DNA of 64,000 nucleotides from contig CALVOP010000003.1 in the NCBI GenBank assembly GCA_944350345.1, positions 1-64,000 of the forward strand. Direction: 5' to 3'. Of the stretch, positions 1 through 57,606 are shown in pieces. The notes under the pieces are model-generated. The model had not been told where the DNA came from and searched no databases. It saw nothing but the letters and a program-made list of their open reading frames with translations. This stretch comes from an uncultured Bacilli bacterium (GTDB lineage Bacteria; Bacillota_I; Bacilli_A; RF39; UBA660). Every line of letters starts with the position of its first letter. Position 1 is the first letter of the stretch. The translations under genes and the position numbers were made by a program.

Positions 1-6
1 TTTTGT

Positions 7-33
7 AGAACTTATTACCTTAAGTTCTTTTTT
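7..33 (+). terminator. Rho-independent terminator of an upstream gene
   Basis: A 7-bp stem (GAACTTA at 8-14 with TAAGTTC at 21-27) has a 6-nt loop and is followed directly by six T. It ends the transcript of a gene lying left of the window, within the integrated element. Confidence 0.7.
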
Positions 34-73
34 AGTTTTTATAAAAATAAACTTAAAAGAAAGGACAGAGTAT

Positions 74-291: not shown

Positions 292-1953
292 ATGGACTTA
301 TATACAGTTAGGAATAACATTATGAAAGGTGTTCCCTTGCAAGAATTAAAATTAAGAGTATGTTTTTATGCCAGAGTATCAACGGATAAAGATGAGCAGT
401 TGCACTCCTTATCTGCACAAATATCTTTCTTTAATGATTATATAAGTAAAATTCCTAACTGGTGTTTTATAGGTTCATATATTGATGAGGGTATTAGTGG
501 AACATCAGTCAATAAACGTGAAGAATTTTTAAGAATGATTGATGATGCTAAAAAGCATAAATTCGATTTAATATTAACAAAAGAAATATCCAGGTTTTCA
601 AGAAGCACTTTAGATAGTATCAAATATACTCAAGAATTACTGCAAGATGGTGTTGGGGTCTATTTTTTAAATGATAATATTAATACTATATTACCTGATT
701 CTGAACTTAGACTTACAATAATGTCATCGATTGCTCAAGACGAGGTAAGAAAACTATCAGAGAGAGTATCTTTCGGTATGAAAAGAAGTATTGATAGTGG
801 TACTGTATTAGGTTGTTCTAACATCTATGGTTATGTAAAAGATAAAGGAAAACTTGTTATTGATGAGAAACAAGCCGAAATGATTAAAATCATCTTTGAT
901 AGATATGCTAATAGCGCAGATGGTTTATCTAAAGTATCAAAGTATTTATATGAATTAGGTTATAAAAATAAAAAAGGTAAAAGGATAGATACAACAATAC
1001 TAACTAGAATTATCGAAAATCCAAAATATAAAGGATATTATTGTGGTCATAAAACGAAAGTATTAGATTATCGTACTAAGAAAAAGAAAAAATTAAATGA
1101 ATCTGATTGGATTATTTATAAAGACTATGAAAATGTCCCACCCATTGTATCGAAAGACTTATGGGAAAGAGCCAATAAAAAATTAAAGGAAAGGCAAGAC
1201 AGCTTTACAAACAGAGCAGTCGATAAAAAAGTATTTCAAAATAGATATACTTATTCAGGAAAAATTTATTGTGGATGTCACAACTTAACTTATCATAGAT
1301 CATCGGCTGGTAAAAGAAAAAATAATCCAGTTTGGGAATGCCAAGTATACCGGAAAGAAAGTTTAAAAGGTTGTTCTAACCCTAGAGTATTTGAACAAGA
1401 ACTAGATATAGTTTTTAAAGATATGTTTGGTAAATTATTGAAACGAAGAAAGCATATTTTCGATGACATATTAAATGATTGTAAGATTTATTTAGAAACG
1501 AATAATAATGAAGCTGAAATAAAAAATATCGAATCTAAAATTTTAATGTTTAATAATAAAAAAGATAAATTACTAGAACTTGTTATGGAAGAATATTTAT
1601 CTAAAGAAGATTATAAAAAACAGGTAGATTTGATTAATGAAGATATAATCACAAATCAAAACAGACTAAACGAATTACAAAATAATAAGCAAGATAAAAA
1701 TTATATTGAAAATAAAATTAATGAACTAAAAAAGATGTTAGATAATTGTTTAACTGATAATAAATGTTATAGTGATGTTTTTAATGAACTAATTGATAGA
1801 ATTTATGTTTATAAAGAAGAGAATAAAAAGATAAAACTAGATATTTATATTAAAACAGGAGAAAGCATAAATACATTCTCCGATAATTTGGGTAGAAAGT
1901 TTCATTTAATAGACAACTATACAACAAGTACAATCAGTTTCCACAATAGTTAA
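292..1953 (+). CDS. Large serine recombinase (site-specific integrase)
   Basis: This 553-residue protein would catalyse integration and excision through a serine-DNA intermediate. The resolvase catalytic domain is at about residues 21-165. The nucleophile is S30 in YARVSTDK, and EISRFSRS and the DEGISGTS motif are also present. A recombinase domain follows at about 175-290. A zinc-ribbon region follows, with CGC and later single cysteines at about 325-365, then a coiled coil at about 400-475. The start has an AGGAGG site overlapping the previous stop. The last ~25 residues, after KTGESIN, look like read-through across the attachment site. The TAA used lies in sequence that encodes the PBP in another frame, so the C-terminus probably differs when the element is excised. 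Confidence 0.93.
   Translation: MDLYTVRNNIMKGVPLQELKLRVCFYARVSTDKDEQLHSLSAQISFFNDYISKIPNWCFIGSYIDEGISGTSVNKREEFLRMIDDAKKHKFDLILTKEISRFSRSTLDSIKYTQELLQDGVGVYFLNDNINTILPDSELRLTIMSSIAQDEVRKLSERVSFGMKRSIDSGTVLGCSNIYGYVKDKGKLVIDEKQAEMIKIIFDRYANSADGLSKVSKYLYELGYKNKKGKRIDTTILTRIIENPKYKGYYCGHKTKVLDYRTKKKKKLNESDWIIYKDYENVPPIVSKDLWERANKKLKERQDSFTNRAVDKKVFQNRYTYSGKIYCGCHNLTYHRSSAGKRKNNPVWECQVYRKESLKGCSNPRVFEQELDIVFKDMFGKLLKRRKHIFDDILNDCKIYLETNNNEAEIKNIESKILMFNNKKDKLLELVMEEYLSKEDYKKQVDLINEDIITNQNRLNELQNNKQDKNYIENKINELKKMLDNCLTDNKCYSDVFNELIDRIYVYKEENKKIKLDIYIKTGESINTFSDNLGRKFHLIDNYTTSTISFHNS
1915..1950. other. Probable attR junction between element and spoVD-type gene
   Basis: Two reading frames meet here. 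The recombinase frame ends at 1953. The PBP frame, read as QQVQSVSTIVNGGT, is open from about 1922 and matches the conserved region just before the KTG box of class B PBPs. The crossover core must lie where host homology begins, but it cannot be placed exactly from one end. Confidence 0.5.
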
Positions 1954-2590
1954 TGGTGGAACAATGATGCAACCATTTATAGTAAAATCAATTAGTGAAC
2001 CAGAAACATCTACAATAGTTGAAGAGTACACACCTACTATAAAAAAAGAGAATGTTATAAGTAAAGAAACAAGCGATTTAGTAAAATACGTACTAGAAAG
2101 TGTTGTAGCAAACGGAAGTGGAAGAAATGCATACATAGAAAACTATAGAGTTGGAGGAAAAACTGGAACAGCGCAAAAAGTAGGAAGTGACGGAAGATAC
2201 ATGGTAGGAAACTATGTACTTTCATTTATAGGTTTTATGCCAGCAAATGATCCAGAATATGTCATTTATATAGCGATAGACAATGCAAAAGGAGTAACTC
2301 AATACGGAGGAACTGTAGCTGCTCCTATAGCAGGAAATGTTCTAAAAACTATAATTAATTTATATGATTTAGAAGAAGACACAAGTGGATTACCTAGAGA
2401 ATATTTATGGTACGAGCAAAAATATATAACAGTACCAGATGTAATTAACATGACAAAAAAAGAGGCAATAAAAGCACTAAATGGATTTACTATTGAATAT
2501 TCAGGACAAGGGGACAAAGTTATAAGCACCTCACCATCTGCAGGCGCTAGAATCAAAGAAGGCAGCATTGTCAAGATAATGTTAAATTGA
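1922..2590 (+). pseudogene. spoVD: 3' part of a SpoVD-type class B penicillin-binding protein, interrupted by the element
   Basis: Read in frame from about 1922, the product begins in the NGGT region of the transpeptidase domain. It contains the KTG box (GGKTGTAQ) and ends with one PASTA domain (from TVPDVINMTKKEA to the C-terminus). The SxxK and SxN motifs are missing because the 5' two thirds lie beyond the inserted element. The next genes are mraY and a SEDS protein, the place spoVD holds in the Bacillus dcw cluster. A separate ftsI/pbpB with PASTA domains sits at 51.6 kb, so this is most likely the sporulation-specific paralogue. A short ORF starting at ATG 1964 could be translated but would be inactive. 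The gene may be restorable by excision. Confidence 0.8.
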
Positions 2591-2661: not shown

Positions 2662-3654
2662 ATGTTAATTTTAGCAAAATCTGTTTTAGGTTTAATGATT
2701 GGATTTTTTCTTACAGTCATATTTGGCTATTTCATGATTCCAGTATTAAAAAAGATTAAATTCGGACAAGTAATAAGTACATATATCACAAAACGACATT
2801 TAGAAAAAGAAGGTACTCCAACAATAGGTGGGTTAATATTTATAATTCCTACAGTAATAACTATGATACTTTTATATTTAAGAGGAAGTTTAAATTTCTC
2901 ATATAACTTATTAATTGTCATGTTTGTATTTATTTCATATTCATTGCTAGGATTCATAGATGATTACTTAAAAATAAAAAGACACAATAATGATGGACTT
3001 AGTATAATACAAAAATTAATAGCGCAGGTATTCATAGCATTAGTATTTTTTTACATATATATGAGAAGTGGTGGAGAAACACTCTTAGAAATTACATCAA
3101 TCAACTTTAGTGTAGATTTAAAATGGACATATGGGCTTTTTATATTATTTTTACTAGTGGGAACTTCAAATGCAGTCAACATTACCGATGGAGAAGACGG
3201 ATTAGCAGCAGGACTATCAGCAGTTGCATTTGTTAGTTTTGGTATTATTACATGGGGAACTTCATGGGTAGAAGGATATCAAGAAATGGCAATTTTTTGC
3301 TTTATATTAGTAGGAGCCTTATTAGGATTTTTGGTATATAATACACATCCAGCTAAAGTTTTTATGGGTGACACCGGTTCGCTTGGCCTTGGGGCAGCAT
3401 TAGCTTCAATAGCAATATTGTCAAAACATGAGTTAAGTTTAGCTTTAATAGGTGGAGTGTTCATTGCTGAAACGTTATCAAGTCTAATACAAATAATATC
3501 AATAAGAAAATTCAATAAAAAAATATTTAGAATGGCACCTTTACACCACCATTTTGAACAATTAGGTTGGGAAGAAAGAGATATAGTAAAATTATTTTGG
3601 ATAGTTGGATTTATGTTAGGAATGATCGCAGTTTACTACGGAGTATGGTTATAA
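2662..3654 (+). CDS. mraY: Phospho-N-acetylmuramoyl-pentapeptide transferase
   Basis: MraY joins UDP-MurNAc-pentapeptide to undecaprenyl phosphate to form lipid I in the membrane. The product has 330 residues, the usual length, with about ten membrane segments. Family motifs are visible: TIGGLIF, the FIDDYLKI aspartates, NAVNITDGEDGLAAG, FMGDTGSLGLG and the MAPLHHHFE histidine cluster. The family usually has DGLDG where this protein has DGEDG. The site GAGGAGAG precedes the ATG. In Bacillus murE precedes and murD follows mraY; both are absent from this position here. Confidence 0.97.
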   Translation: MLILAKSVLGLMIGFFLTVIFGYFMIPVLKKIKFGQVISTYITKRHLEKEGTPTIGGLIFIIPTVITMILLYLRGSLNFSYNLLIVMFVFISYSLLGFIDDYLKIKRHNNDGLSIIQKLIAQVFIALVFFYIYMRSGGETLLEITSINFSVDLKWTYGLFILFLLVGTSNAVNITDGEDGLAAGLSAVAFVSFGIITWGTSWVEGYQEMAIFCFILVGALLGFLVYNTHPAKVFMGDTGSLGLGAALASIAILSKHELSLALIGGVFIAETLSSLIQIISIRKFNKKIFRMAPLHHHFEQLGWEERDIVKLFWIVGFMLGMIAVYYGVWL

Positions 3655-3674: not shown

Positions 3675-4754
3675 TTGAAAAAAGATAAAATATTATCTTT
3701 AGCAGTAACATTAATTAGCATTTTTGGTATAGTAATGATATACAGTTCTAGTTATATATGGGCTGAATACAAATACGACAATGCCTACAAGTACGTTATA
3801 AATCAAAGCATATTTTTTATCATAGGCATAATAATAGTTAACATAATTTCGAAAATTGACTATAACTTTTATAAGAAAAAAGCAAACCTCATATTAGGCG
3901 TTTGCTTTTTATTATTATTGCTTGTCCTTATCCCCGGGATTGGCATAGAAAGAAACGGATCGAGAAGTTGGTTTGGGATAGGTTCGCTAGGCATACAACC
4001 GAGCGAGCTATCAAAAATAGGTTTAGTAATTTTTATTTCAAAATTTTTATCCAAAAATGATAAAGAAAAAAAAGAAACAAAAAAATTTATATGGCCAGCG
4101 CTACTAATAATAGTAATATTTTTTGGTCTAATAATGCTAGAACCTGATTTTGGAACCGGAATGGTAATAGTAATGTCACTAATAGGATTAATATTCATAA
4201 CTGGCACTAAACTTGGAATTTTCATTAAACTGGGATTAGTAGGCTTAGTAGGAATTATAGGGCTAATAATAGCTGCCCCATACAGATTAAAAAGAATTAC
4301 TTCGTTTTTAAATCCATGGAGCGATCCATTAGGAAGTGGGTTTCAAATAATACAAAGTTTATATGCAATTGGGCCCGGAGGCTTACTAGGTTTTGGATTT
4401 TTAAACTCAAGACAAAAACACTTTTATTTACCAGAACCACAAACAGATTTTATATTTTCAATAATTTGTGAAGAGTTTGGAATTTTGGGGGTATTACTAG
4501 TTTCAACATTATTTGTAATAATCTTATATAGAAGTATCAAAATCAGTATAAACCAAACAGACTTATTTGGAAAATACTTAGCATTCGGATTATCATTTAT
4601 GCTAATCTTTCAAACATTACTTAATTTAATGGTAGTTGTAGGCATATTACCTGTAACGGGTGTTACCTTACCATTTATAAGTTATGGTGGAAGCAGTTTG
4701 CTCACCAGTTTAACAATGATAGGAATAATACTAAACATAAAAAATAGCAATTAA
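3675..4754 (+). CDS. SEDS-family peptidoglycan glycosyltransferase (FtsW/SpoVE type)
   Basis: SEDS proteins polymerise lipid II together with a class B PBP. The 359-residue protein has about ten hydrophobic segments. It carries the family signatures: NGSRSWF and QPSELSK near residue 95-110, the catalytic-region LEPDFGTG at about 155, and the C-terminal LPFISYGGSS. The start is TTG at 3675, preceded by AGGGGG. Its position after spoVD and mraY matches spoVE of Bacillus, and the partner would be the interrupted PBP. FtsW function in vegetative division is equally possible, so I leave the symbol open. Confidence 0.9.
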   Translation: MKKDKILSLAVTLISIFGIVMIYSSSYIWAEYKYDNAYKYVINQSIFFIIGIIIVNIISKIDYNFYKKKANLILGVCFLLLLLVLIPGIGIERNGSRSWFGIGSLGIQPSELSKIGLVIFISKFLSKNDKEKKETKKFIWPALLIIVIFFGLIMLEPDFGTGMVIVMSLIGLIFITGTKLGIFIKLGLVGLVGIIGLIIAAPYRLKRITSFLNPWSDPLGSGFQIIQSLYAIGPGGLLGFGFLNSRQKHFYLPEPQTDFIFSIICEEFGILGVLLVSTLFVIILYRSIKISINQTDLFGKYLAFGLSFMLIFQTLLNLMVVVGILPVTGVTLPFISYGGSSLLTSLTMIGIILNIKNSN

Positions 4755-40016: not shown

Positions 40017-41015
40017 GTGAAAAAATTATTATTTATATTACTGTGTAGCATTTTAGTTGTTGGATGTGGAAAGGTTGATTCAGAAAAGGTGTTAAAAGAA
40101 TTTGAAACAAAAGTGACAAATAGTGACAATTATACATTAACTGGAACTATGGAAATAATTAACAATGAGGACGTATATAATTATGAAGTAAATGTATCTT
40201 ATTTAAAAGGAGACTATTATAAAGTTAATTTAATTAATACCAATAATGAACATGAACAAGTAATCTTAAAAAATGATGAGGGTGTATATGTAATAACACC
40301 TTCCTTAAATAAAAGTTTCAAATTCCAAAGTGATTGGCCAAACAACTCTAGTCAAACATACATCTTAGATTCATTATTATCAGATTTAAAAAGCGATGCA
40401 AATAGAGAATTACTAGAAGAGGGAGATAAATTAATATTAAAAAGCAGTGTAAATTATCCAAACAATAGTAATCTTGTAAGTCAGTCAGTAACATTTAATA
40501 AAGATATGGATTTAGAAAAAGTAGAAGTATTTAATGACGCAGGAGTAGCCCAAATTACTTTAGTTGTAACCGAACTAAACTTAAAAGCAAACAACACAAA
40601 AGAAATATTTAATCTAAGTAACATAATTCAAGAATCTGATGTAGATACAGAAACTGAAACAACAGGAACAATAGAAAATATAATTTACCCAATGTATGTA
40701 CCGACAGGCACGACATATAGTAGTGAAGAAAAAATAACAAACGAATCAAGCGAAAGAGTAATACTTACTTATACAGGAGAAAAACCGTTTATAATAATAG
40801 AGGAAACTGCACAAGTGCCTGAAGAAACAGAAGTAACAGCAGTGAATGGAGATTTGGTAACATATGGGAACATTGTAGGAGTATTGACAGATACTTCATT
40901 AAATTGGACAACAAACGGAATGGAATACTACATAGTAAGTTCAAATATGAGTGCAGAAGAATTACTACAAATTGCTGCATCTACCGCTACAGTAGCTGTA
41001 TCATCTATAAAATAA
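40017..41015 (+). CDS. ydcC: YdcC-type sporulation lipoprotein (LolA-like fold)
   Basis: GTG 40017 follows GGGGGAGGA. The 332-residue protein has a lipobox (LVVGCGK, Cys near 17). It then has a LolA-like sheet with the best-matching stretch LKNDEGVYVITPSLNKSFKF, followed by QSDWPNNSSQTYILDSLL. Bacillus YdcC is a mother-cell sporulation lipoprotein, and GerS of Clostridioides is a relative. About 110 extra residues at the C-terminus form a second domain (PTGTTYSSEEKI...). Confidence 0.82.
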   Translation: MKKLLFILLCSILVVGCGKVDSEKVLKEFETKVTNSDNYTLTGTMEIINNEDVYNYEVNVSYLKGDYYKVNLINTNNEHEQVILKNDEGVYVITPSLNKSFKFQSDWPNNSSQTYILDSLLSDLKSDANRELLEEGDKLILKSSVNYPNNSNLVSQSVTFNKDMDLEKVEVFNDAGVAQITLVVTELNLKANNTKEIFNLSNIIQESDVDTETETTGTIENIIYPMYVPTGTTYSSEEKITNESSERVILTYTGEKPFIIIEETAQVPEETEVTAVNGDLVTYGNIVGVLTDTSLNWTTNGMEYYIVSSNMSAEELLQIAASTATVAVSSIK

Positions 41016-51614: not shown

Positions 51615-53750
51615 ATGAGTAAAGCAAGAACCATTAGAATAAATCGCGTTTTTTTGATGGTTGTTGTTTTTTTGTTTGCACTTATAATTGCTAAATTAGT
51701 ATATGTAGGATTAAGCCCCGTAGTAGATGGAGTAAATATCAAAGAATTTGCAGATAGTAGGAATACAAAAAAAGAAACCATAGTTGCTAATAGAGGAACA
51801 ATATATGATTCAAATGGAGAAATATTAGCCCAAAACGTAAATAGTTATACCGTCATAGCGTACCTAAGTGAATCAAGAACAACTGATCCAGAAAATCCCT
51901 ACCATGTTGTAGACAAAGAAAAAACAGCAAAATTACTATCTCCCATAATAAACATGACAGAAGAAAGAATATTAGAACTATTAAATTATGATGCATACCA
52001 AGTAGAACTAGGTCCAGGTGGAAGAGGATTAACGGAACTAGTAAAAGAAGAGATAGAAGCATTAGATTTGCCAGGAATAGACTTTATAAAAAGTACAAAA
52101 AGATACTATCCAAATGCCGACTTCTTGTCATATACTATAGGATATGCAAAAACAGACGAATCAAACAATGTTATAGGAGAGTTAGGAATTGAACTATACT
52201 ATAACGAGATACTAACTGGTAAAAATGGTTATAAAGAATACCAATCAGATATGTATGGATACCAAATAGCAAACACTGAACCACTCATAGAAGAAGCAGA
52301 AGACGGAAATGACATATACCTAACAATAGATACAAACATTCAAATGTTTATAGAACAAGCGATGAACACATTAACTGAATACGGTGTTGACTGGGCATCA
52401 ATAAGTATAACAAATGCAAAAACAGGAGAGATATTAGGAATAAGCTCTTCTCCAAGCTTTGATCCAAACATAAAAGACATCGAATCATATTACGATCCAT
52501 TCGTATCATATACATACGAGCCAGGTTCAACAATGAAGATATTTAGTTTTATGGCAGCAATAGAAAACGGATTATATGATGGAGAAGAATTATATAATAG
52601 TGGACAGTTGACGATTGGAGAAGACAAAGTAACAGATTGGAACACATACGGATGGGGAAAAATATCATTCAATCGAGGATTCTATGCTTCCAGTAACGTC
52701 GCCGCAACATTACTCGCACAAAGACTTGGAAGAGACAAATTAAAAGACTTTTACGAATCACTAGGATACGGAAAAATAACAGGAATAAATTTGCCCGAAG
52801 AACAAACAGGTGTCATAAATTTCAAATATGACATTGAAGTAGCCAATGCGGCTTTCGGTCAAGGAATGAGTGTAACACCAATTCAAATGGTACAAGCACT
52901 CACATCATTAGCAAATAATGGAACAGTAATCAAGCCATACATAGTAGATAAAATTATGGACGGAGACGAAATAGTATATGAAGGAAAAAGAGAAGAAGTA
53001 AGAAAAGTAGCAAGTCCAGAAACAATAAAACAAGTATTAGAACTAATGAATGGAGTAGTAAATTCAGAAGACAGCATAGCAACAGGAACAAGTTACAAAG
53101 TAGATTTTGTCAATTTAGCAGGAAAAACAGGAACCGCGCAGATAGCTAGCTCGAGCGGTGGATACATGACAGGATATTATGACAACATAAGAAGTTTTGC
53201 AGGAGTATTTCCATATGAAGATCCAGAAATAATAGTATATGCAGTTGTAAGAAGACTAACAGACACATCACTACTACCAGAATCTGTAAAAGCACTAGTA
53301 GAAGATGTATCAACTTATTTAAATATAACTAGCACTGATATAGTAAAAGAAGAAGGGACATACGAAGTAGATAGTTTCATTAACACTATAACTAAAGAAA
53401 CAAAAGAAGATTTAGAAAACAACGATTTCGAAGTTATTGCAATAGGAGACGGAAGCGTAGTAATAGATCAGTACCCTAAAAAAGGAACCACAATAAATGA
53501 GAAAGACAAAATATTTCTACTAACAAACGGGACTAACAAAACATATCCAGATATGACAAATTGGTCGAGAAGTGATGTAACATCATTTGCGAACTTAATA
53601 GGGTTATCAGTAACATTTGATGGATATGGTTACGTAAAAAGTATGACGTCAAAAATAGGAGAAACAATAAACCTAAACCAAACATTAAAAGTATCTCTTG
53701 AACCAATTTACAATTTAGAAGAGAGTCTAACAGAAAACGACAAAGAATGA
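51615..53750 (+). CDS. pbpB: Division transpeptidase PBP2B/FtsI with PASTA domains
   Basis: The 711-residue class B PBP has a membrane segment (about 11-31), RGTIYDSNGEILA in the dimerisation domain and SxxK at S305 (PGSTMKIFS). SxN is near 359 (YASSNVAAT) and KTG near 504 (GKTGTAQIAS). Two C-terminal PASTA-type modules follow from about 590. It cross-links septal peptidoglycan with FtsW. In Bacillus spoVD follows directly; here spoVD is in the other dcw piece at 2 kb. Confidence 0.95.
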   Translation: MSKARTIRINRVFLMVVVFLFALIIAKLVYVGLSPVVDGVNIKEFADSRNTKKETIVANRGTIYDSNGEILAQNVNSYTVIAYLSESRTTDPENPYHVVDKEKTAKLLSPIINMTEERILELLNYDAYQVELGPGGRGLTELVKEEIEALDLPGIDFIKSTKRYYPNADFLSYTIGYAKTDESNNVIGELGIELYYNEILTGKNGYKEYQSDMYGYQIANTEPLIEEAEDGNDIYLTIDTNIQMFIEQAMNTLTEYGVDWASISITNAKTGEILGISSSPSFDPNIKDIESYYDPFVSYTYEPGSTMKIFSFMAAIENGLYDGEELYNSGQLTIGEDKVTDWNTYGWGKISFNRGFYASSNVAATLLAQRLGRDKLKDFYESLGYGKITGINLPEEQTGVINFKYDIEVANAAFGQGMSVTPIQMVQALTSLANNGTVIKPYIVDKIMDGDEIVYEGKREEVRKVASPETIKQVLELMNGVVNSEDSIATGTSYKVDFVNLAGKTGTAQIASSSGGYMTGYYDNIRSFAGVFPYEDPEIIVYAVVRRLTDTSLLPESVKALVEDVSTYLNITSTDIVKEEGTYEVDSFINTITKETKEDLENNDFEVIAIGDGSVVIDQYPKKGTTINEKDKIFLLTNGTNKTYPDMTNWSRSDVTSFANLIGLSVTFDGYGYVKSMTSKIGETINLNQTLKVSLEPIYNLEESLTENDKE

Positions 53751-56748: not shown

Positions 56749-56775
56749 ACATTTTTATAAAAAGGGGTATTGGTT

Positions 56776-57606
56776 ATGGAATTAAAAAATGGTGATCAGT
56801 TAAAAGCATATTTGAAAAAAGAATCAAAAAGATTGGGGATTTCAATTAATAGTACGTATAATGCATTTTTTACTAGAAATTTATTAGAAAGTATATCTGG
56901 GCTAAATTATGGAAATTTCGTTGTTAAAGGTAGTTTTTCTCAATTAATTCACTCAGGGACAATGTATAGGCCAGTCACTGATATTGATTTAGCAAGCAAT
57001 AATGAAATTTCAGCTTTAAACCTTTTATATGAATTTTTAAACGGACAAAGTTCATTTATAACATATCAAATTAATAGAGAACCGCGTGTTACATCTCATG
57101 GCACTCATAATTTTTCAGTTTATTGTATGTTTGATAGTATTAAACATTCAATTGGAATTGATTTTATGCCAAATTATAATTGCTTATACGAAATTCAATA
57201 TAAACCAGTTCCCAAAATATTTTTAGGAGATAACGAATTTTATGTTAACACTCCATCATATGAAGAGTATTTAGCAGAAAAAGTTTGTATTGTTGCTGAA
57301 AATAATGCGTCTGGAAGAATTTTTAGAGTTAAAGATTTTTATGATATATATAAATTGCATAATGGTAAATATGATTATGAAAAATTTTCTATGTATTTTC
57401 AAAAAATGTTAAAAGATAGAAAACGTATTTCTATTGATGATGTCGATGCAAAGCATTTGAATAAAGATCTAATATTAAGAATCCAAGATATGTGGAATAA
57501 TGTTAAAAGCAATCATGAATTCTTGGATAGTTCGGTAGAACTTGAAGAAGCAGTTTATTATAGTAAAGGCGTTTTAGAAGACCAAATATTAAGGTTAAGG
57601 AGGTAA
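56776..57606 (+). CDS. AbiEii/MenT-type nucleotidyltransferase (toxin-like)
   Basis: ATG 56776 follows AAAGGGG. The 276-residue protein has the polymerase-beta-fold motif VVKGSFSQL...TDIDLAS (G-S then D-x-D, near 45-75) and a third acidic residue in IGIDFMPN near 130. The distal motif EEYLAEKVCIVAE with RVKDFYDIYKL is near 165-195. This is the order seen in AbiEii toxins, which add nucleotides to tRNA acceptor ends or other targets. No AbiEi antitoxin lies upstream. Codon use (many ATT, GTT, TTG) differs from the neighbours, suggesting transfer. Confidence 0.82.
   Translation: MELKNGDQLKAYLKKESKRLGISINSTYNAFFTRNLLESISGLNYGNFVVKGSFSQLIHSGTMYRPVTDIDLASNNEISALNLLYEFLNGQSSFITYQINREPRVTSHGTHNFSVYCMFDSIKHSIGIDFMPNYNCLYEIQYKPVPKIFLGDNEFYVNTPSYEEYLAEKVCIVAENNASGRIFRVKDFYDIYKLHNGKYDYEKFSMYFQKMLKDRKRISIDDVDAKHLNKDLILRIQDMWNNVKSNHEFLDSSVELEEAVYYSKGVLEDQILRLRR

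Follow-up and report, generated by a model that had tools for sequence, protein, structure and literature searches.

Spore genes that are split by an intervening element have so far been known as scattered single cases, namely sigK, spsM, spoVFB, gerE and yabG. The mother cell, which dies in the end, is where SpoVD, SigK, SpoIVA and CotZ function. The skin element in sigK has been described in Bacillus subtilis and Clostridioides difficile (PMC5025042), while gerE of Bacillus cereus ATCC10987 is interrupted by the gin element, which is 28.6 kb long and carries three recombinases (PMC5595907). The yin element lies in yabG of Clostridium botulinum (PMC10747680) and SP-beta in spsM (PMC4191935), and both are excised by a serine recombinase together with a directionality factor. 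In cyanobacteria, heterocyst interruption elements split nifD and other genes, with up to four elements in one gene in the case of Rivularia nifD (PMC4874684).

The window, which is the whole stretch of 64,000 nucleotides analysed here, makes up the first 64 kb of contig C3 in an 898-kb draft genome of 33 contigs (90% complete). At a probability of about 0.83, it starts with the right end of a skin-type sporulation-gene intervening element, located in spoVD, whereas excision, its timing, the cell type and the role of a small ORF are inferred. The skin element of C. difficile, with its recombinase at the same place, is the closest model: in both cases, the 3' part of a spore gene is directly preceded by the gene for a large serine recombinase and the att cores restore the frame, and related recombinases adjoining split sigK belong to the same larger clade as those of spoVD. 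Unlike skin, the elements considered here have spoVD as their target, use several sites within it (A to D), reach up to three per gene and include small cargo elements. They resemble gin as intervening elements, apparently non-prophage ones, with a recombinase and a small accessory factor, which is only a candidate in the spoVD elements, but usually carry one recombinase in 3.4-21 kb instead of three in 28.6 kb. With yin and SP-beta they share the position in a mother-cell gene; however, yin and SP-beta are prophages or prophage-like, whereas the elements of sites A to D look like non-phage cargo islands, as far as the PHROGs sample can tell. Heterocyst elements are alike in splitting developmental genes, several times per gene, by DNA that is excisable (in spoVD by inference), and differ in that cyanobacterial nitrogen fixation genes are concerned rather than spore formation in Bacilli.

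The forward strand of the window begins, at base 1, with the end of a conserved leader, which is followed by a 68-aa ORF, the recombinase, the 3' part of a gene for a class B penicillin-binding protein (PBP), mraY, a SEDS gene, murG and a divIB-like gene. The 3' end of the leader (1-73, TTTTGTAGAACTTATTACCTTAAGTTCTTTTTT...GAAAGGAC), which contains the ribosome-binding site of the small ORF, is near-identical in the compared site-A elements. The 68-aa ORF (74-280, forward) lies directly upstream of the recombinase and is a candidate recombination directionality factor, a function that is inferred only. The ORF at 292-1953 (forward) meets the domain criteria of a large serine recombinase, with Resolvase (E 1.5e-28), Recombinase (E 7.8e-19) and Zn-ribbon (E 4e-6) domains in Pfam, a match to the integrases of PHROG 95, and an RVST active-site motif conserved in the alignment. 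No gap separates it from the PBP gene, into which its last codons read in a different frame. The PBP fragment is open from 1916 to 2590, the spoVD 3' part proper being 1922-2590 (forward), and matches positions 411-633 of the 636 in the SpoVD model TIGR02214 (E 6.7e-70). According to Pfam, it carries the end of the transpeptidase domain, including the KTG motif at about 2158-2166, and one PASTA domain at about 2426-2584. The next gene of the spoVD operon position, mraY (2662-3654, forward), was named by sequence and position, and it is followed by a spoVE-like SEDS gene (3675-4754, forward), for which the spoVE model TIGR02615 is the best among the SEDS models (E 5.5e-125), just under its cut-off (417.5 against 448.8 bits). 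The arrangement that the sequence-only reading had described, a large serine recombinase frame running into the 3' third of a PASTA-type class B PBP gene, with mraY and a SEDS gene behind it as in spoVD, is thus borne out.

The same reading had placed a separate pbpB near 51.6 kb and taken the interrupted copy as probably the sporulation paralogue, and both points are supported. The pbpB gene (51615-53750, forward) is intact and lies behind mraZ, rsmH and ftsL in a dcw context. The curated cut-off of TIGR02214, which applies to the whole protein, is 688 bits; an intact family member reaches 766.8 bits, and the fragment of the window, which covers a third of the model, scores 236 bits. For the two further class B PBPs in the window, the values are 370 (pbpB) and 91 bits, so that pbpB is a division paralogue and no substitute for spoVD. 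As for the further spore genes attributed to the window, SpoIIIAH and a Germane (GerM-type) protein were found and a SirA domain only marginally, while gerE and ydcC could not be upheld (40017-41012 has no Pfam match). SpoIVA is present elsewhere in the genome. The window also holds an AbiEii-type nucleotidyltransferase toxin gene at 56770-57606 (Pfam E 1.9e-13).

The breakpoint within spoVD is exact. From CAACAAGTACAATC onward, the window matches three same-genus genomes in which site A is uninterrupted (G001-G003) almost base for base, with few exceptions. To the left it reads AAAGTTTCATTTAATAGACAACTATA, which is common to G004, a genome interrupted at the same site, is absent from the empty sites and matches only other element ends. 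These comparisons, together with the attL/attR pairs of complete site-A elements, place the inferred crossover dinucleotide CA at 1922-1923 (forward), within the spoVD codons I-Q-Q. The element-side arm of attR (TTTAATAGACAAC, 1905-1917, forward) is the inverted partner of the left-end arm GTTGTCTAATAAA in relatives. Four relatives have a complete site-A element on one contig, with a left end like '..CCAATA CA CCTTGTTGTCTAATAAATGATACC' and a right end like '..TTTAATAGACAACGTTA CA ACAAATAACAGC', and joining of the flanks at site A gives P/A-I-Q-Q-I/V with nothing lost; a fifth complete element read alongside, in G289, sits at a different site (D). Judged by sequence, inverted arms around a common CA dinucleotide agree with the expected form of the attP and crossover of a serine integrase. 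That the element of the window lies inside spoVD and splits its reading frame follows from TIGR02214, the operon position and the empty-site comparison, whereas the common core of attL and attR which restores the exact gene was seen in relatives with both ends, the window offering attR only.

The window and contig C3 share their first base, so neither the left end of the element nor the 5' part of spoVD lies on the contig. Pfam-domain and protein searches of this 90% complete draft did not find the 5' half, returning only pbpB and another class B PBP, and the first 240 bases of the contig, examined as a pointer to a neighbouring contig, have no repeat elsewhere in the genome. The missing 5' part is predicted to be an open frame ending in '..ATTCA/ATACA', followed by CCTTG..GTCTAATAAA. 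Of the three findings that the sequence-only reading had named as refuting its idea of an excised element in spoVD, two turned out in its favour as far as the draft and the relatives allow: an intact copy elsewhere, of which there is none in this genome within the limits of the 90% complete draft, and an other end without a matching core, where relatives with complete elements show matching cores at both ends and open 5' halves.

The intact SpoVD of G016 was compared with 386 genomes of the family, all drafts and nearly all metagenome bins. A spoVD match is present in 377 of the 386, mostly intact with 632-690 codons, while a large minority has two or three partial matches. These stop at recurrent residues, namely near 291-297 at the active-site STFK (SxxK; site C), near 346-354 at SCN (SxN; site B), near 409-416 at 'SVT/IQQ' (site A, that of the window) and, in rare cases, about 403 (site D, which was read directly in G289). 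Automatic range sorting counted 99 genomes as split, with B alone in 40, A alone in 27, C alone in 10 and more than one site in about 19. About thirty junctions were inspected directly, as DNA or as protein, and the per-site counts come from the range sorting; because contig ends may disturb individual site assignments, about a quarter is the safe statement for the split share. In the SIG202 MAG, a single 169.5-kb contig carries exon 1, a 16.4-kb element, an exon of ~124 codons, a 6.8-kb element, the last exon and mraY, each element ending in its recombinase, and removal of both elements in a script yields 634 aa without internal stops, 470/636 identical to the intact SpoVD of G016. In G415, sites C, B and A are all occupied, and the pieces of 890, 158 and 196 nt and the 3' part, taken from two contigs, join to a 634-residue SpoVD with STFK, SCN and KTG intact. 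The middle pieces are not multiples of three, so only complete removal restores the frame. In G005, of the same genus as the window and 92% complete, no spoVD fragment was found, while pbpB and an intact cotZ are present.

Between the recombinases of sites A, B, C and D, identity is 36-50%, and it falls to ~26% against the other recombinases of the window's genome. In a maximum-likelihood tree, sites A, B and C each form one clade (bootstrap 100, SH-aLRT 98-100), that of the window falling in the site-A clade; the recombinases at split sigK and at split spoIVA also form one supported clade each, and those at a D-Ala-D-Ala carboxypeptidase (dac-type) gene a weaker one (89/77). Judging from tree and neighbouring genes, the spoVD site clades are nested in a larger clade whose members also adjoin split sigK, spoIVA and dac-type genes. 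When named genomes were scanned, 28 loci exceeded 59% identity, and 26 of these adjoin the expected spoVD piece or contain its other half. Loci of lower identity from Clostridia and Bacilli adjoin, in frame, the C part of one of three proteins: SigK (E 8e-50 with the NCBIfam SigK models; L147, L158, L162, L163, L166), SpoIVA (TIGR02836, E 1.7e-47; L123-L129, L138) or a D-Ala-D-Ala carboxypeptidase interrupted at its own SxxK motif (Peptidase_S11, E 3.6e-54; L120-L122, L144-L146, L153, L154, L157, L160), with only the C parts read in the latter two. The deepest related group (L132, L134, L136, L142, L143) adjoins a truncated NMT1-type substrate-binding (transporter) gene on the opposite strand, an apparently non-sporulation target, and the wider clade is therefore not exclusively directed to sporulation. 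A scan of IMG/VR with the recombinase alignment gave no match adjoining spoVD.

The elements are 3.4-21 kb long with, as a rule, one recombinase each, which is preceded by a small ORF of 53-82 aa in nearly all complete elements of sites A-D; the 68-aa ORF of the window has no match in Pfam or PHROGs. The ORFs listed for 14 complete elements include cargo-like genes, and the cargo is varied, with Fic, AbiEi/AbiEii-type, ABC transporter and glycosyltransferase genes. Ten element proteins, the only ones sampled against PHROGs, gave integrases, a replication-initiation-like fragment, regulators and an ABC transporter, and no structural match. One site-A element (L049, 2877-7463) encodes an AbiEi/AbiEii-type pair as well as a protein of 884 aa that contains an HNH-like motif and a nearly identical internal repeat in four copies. 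The leader of the site-A elements is strongly conserved (window 1-73; L051 13790-13980; L087 9593-9777) and is predicted to form strong helices, including a 20-bp hairpin and a helix over the Shine-Dalgarno sequence; covariation is weak and too little to claim an RNA structure, and Rfam gave no match within the elements. A sigma-E-type promoter was sought upstream of the recombinase and of the operon, and none was recognised there, nor was anything conserved.

Two loci with a site-A recombinase and no adjacent spoVD (L095 and L115, from two genomes) show attP-like joined ends. In these loci and in L284, the joined ends are followed by the left-end genes of another element, and the recombinase is broken in L115 and L284. 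L095 and L115 were considered as excised circles and not accepted as such, since the ends of the contigs lack an overlap and the genomes concerned retain a further element copy at spoVD or have degenerate recombinases, which makes tandem elements just as likely. The site-A recombinase ORF ends within the host gene in another frame (window 1922-1953), while the joined-end copies read on into a longer tail (L095 11600-11740), so that integrated and circular forms would encode different C-termini.

Other genes of the same genome are split as well. The cotZ gene is interrupted by a 6.84-kb serine-recombinase element (L063 8190-15033 = G000:C2:52189-59032), whose recombinase is unrelated to that of spoVD. 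DNA comparison fixed the crossover as TG in CCATGGAGTATGCC, and the rejoined CotZ is 99% identical over its whole length to the intact CotZ of G002 from the same genus, with slight uncertainty of the joined query at the junction; cotZ is intact in all five other genus members. Moreover, a gene encoding an Amidase_3 domain and five LysM repeats is interrupted by an element of 8.2 kb (L062, roughly G000:C1:46605-54817). The element contains a serine recombinase gene, a probable DNA methyltransferase gene and further cargo, and the amidase gene rejoins in frame through SNHINAGGGDGAEV; sporulation specificity of the amidase was not shown.

The sequence-only reading had allowed that the gene is simply dead, in which case the fragments of interrupted genomes would be decaying. 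The absence of the 5' half from the window's draft, and G005 without any spoVD, would suit such a loss. The 218-codon spoVD fragment of the window, however, has a dN/dS of 0.035-0.059 against four same-genus genomes, including 0.046 against G004, where both partners are interrupted at site A. The neighbouring mraY has 0.038-0.043 and the recombinase 0.06-0.08 against its closest relatives; the spoVD fragment is under strong purifying selection, as mraY is. A dN/dS of about 0.05 and frame-exact splits in about 100 genomes, with middle exons of 158 and 196 nt kept in frame, contradict a dead gene, which we regard as very improbable. That both halves are open and conserved would suit their production as separate proteins which assemble in trans, but the breaks fall inside the transpeptidase domain at SxxK, at SxN and before KTG, and the middle exons are not multiples of three, leaving this idea scarcely credible. 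Just as little weight is given to an assembly chimera, for which one could point to draft genomes and to many contigs ending inside elements, since the same junctions recur in many independent assemblies and are read through on contigs of up to 169 kb. As a separate observation, the synonymous distance between the window's genome (G000) and G002 is 0.17 in the spoVD 3' part (1934-2587) and 0.86 in the adjacent mraY (2662-3651), which suggests recent DNA exchange around spoVD.

It might also be that these are ordinary integrative elements, which use conserved spoVD DNA as attB and leave it occasionally without developmental control, the chance excisers being the cells capable of sporulation. 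Varied cargo, patchy presence within genera and the fact that sites B and C coincide with strongly conserved catalytic motifs are in keeping with this, and we consider it unlikely without dismissing it. Three related clades in one spore gene, with relatives at sigK, spoIVA and dac, are nevertheless hard to explain without a link to sporulation, and a triple-cut gene would need three coincident random excisions.

We therefore prefer a skin-type intervening element, and the suggestion that spoVD is a new target among recombinase-interrupted spore genes has gained support from the exact junctions and from the frames restored in relatives. In this reading, the element is integrated in spoVD at the codons I-Q-Q, and the chromosome accordingly encodes a SpoVD without the KTG motif and the PASTA domain. 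When the cell sporulates, attL would be recombined with attR by the recombinase, assisted by a directionality factor, for which the 68-aa ORF is a candidate; the most likely place is the terminal mother cell, in which spoVD is needed. The element would thus leave as a circle and give an exact full-length spoVD for cortex synthesis, while the germ line in the forespore would keep it. Because the mother cell dies, the element could be excised there without being lost from the lineage, which is the best reason for placing the event in that cell. Developmental excision is an inference by analogy with skin and from the choice of target, with no reads or cultures behind it.

A wider proposal remains tentative, and we lean slightly against it: that in this Bacilli family programmed excision of DNA gates the entire sporulation process, with spoVD as a multi-site target of site-dedicated recombinase lineages, up to three elements and four gene pieces, and cotZ and the amidase split too. 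With several spore-envelope genes split (cotZ, amidase), cortex and coat would then be made only after several independent recombinations.

What is new is the spoVD target, the several sites used by sister recombinases, the two or three elements per spore gene and the frequency of such splits; in the literature, as far as open-licence papers are concerned, no report of elements in spoVD, spoIVA or dac was found. The recombinases of four site specificities within one gene may be useful for understanding how serine integrases change their target. We presume that the family of the window belongs to RF39. A survey of Bacilli orders found spoVD reduced or absent in RF39, although spore formation was predicted (PMC10868615). 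Should the family lie there, split genes may partly explain why surveys call spoVD reduced or missing. The findings suggest that gut bacteria of this family rebuild spore genes by editing their own DNA, and, with excision being inferred, DNA rearrangement would be no mere curiosity but a common level at which sporulation is regulated. If excision did gate sporulation as a whole, endospore formation would have its own counterpart to the genome rearrangements of heterocysts.
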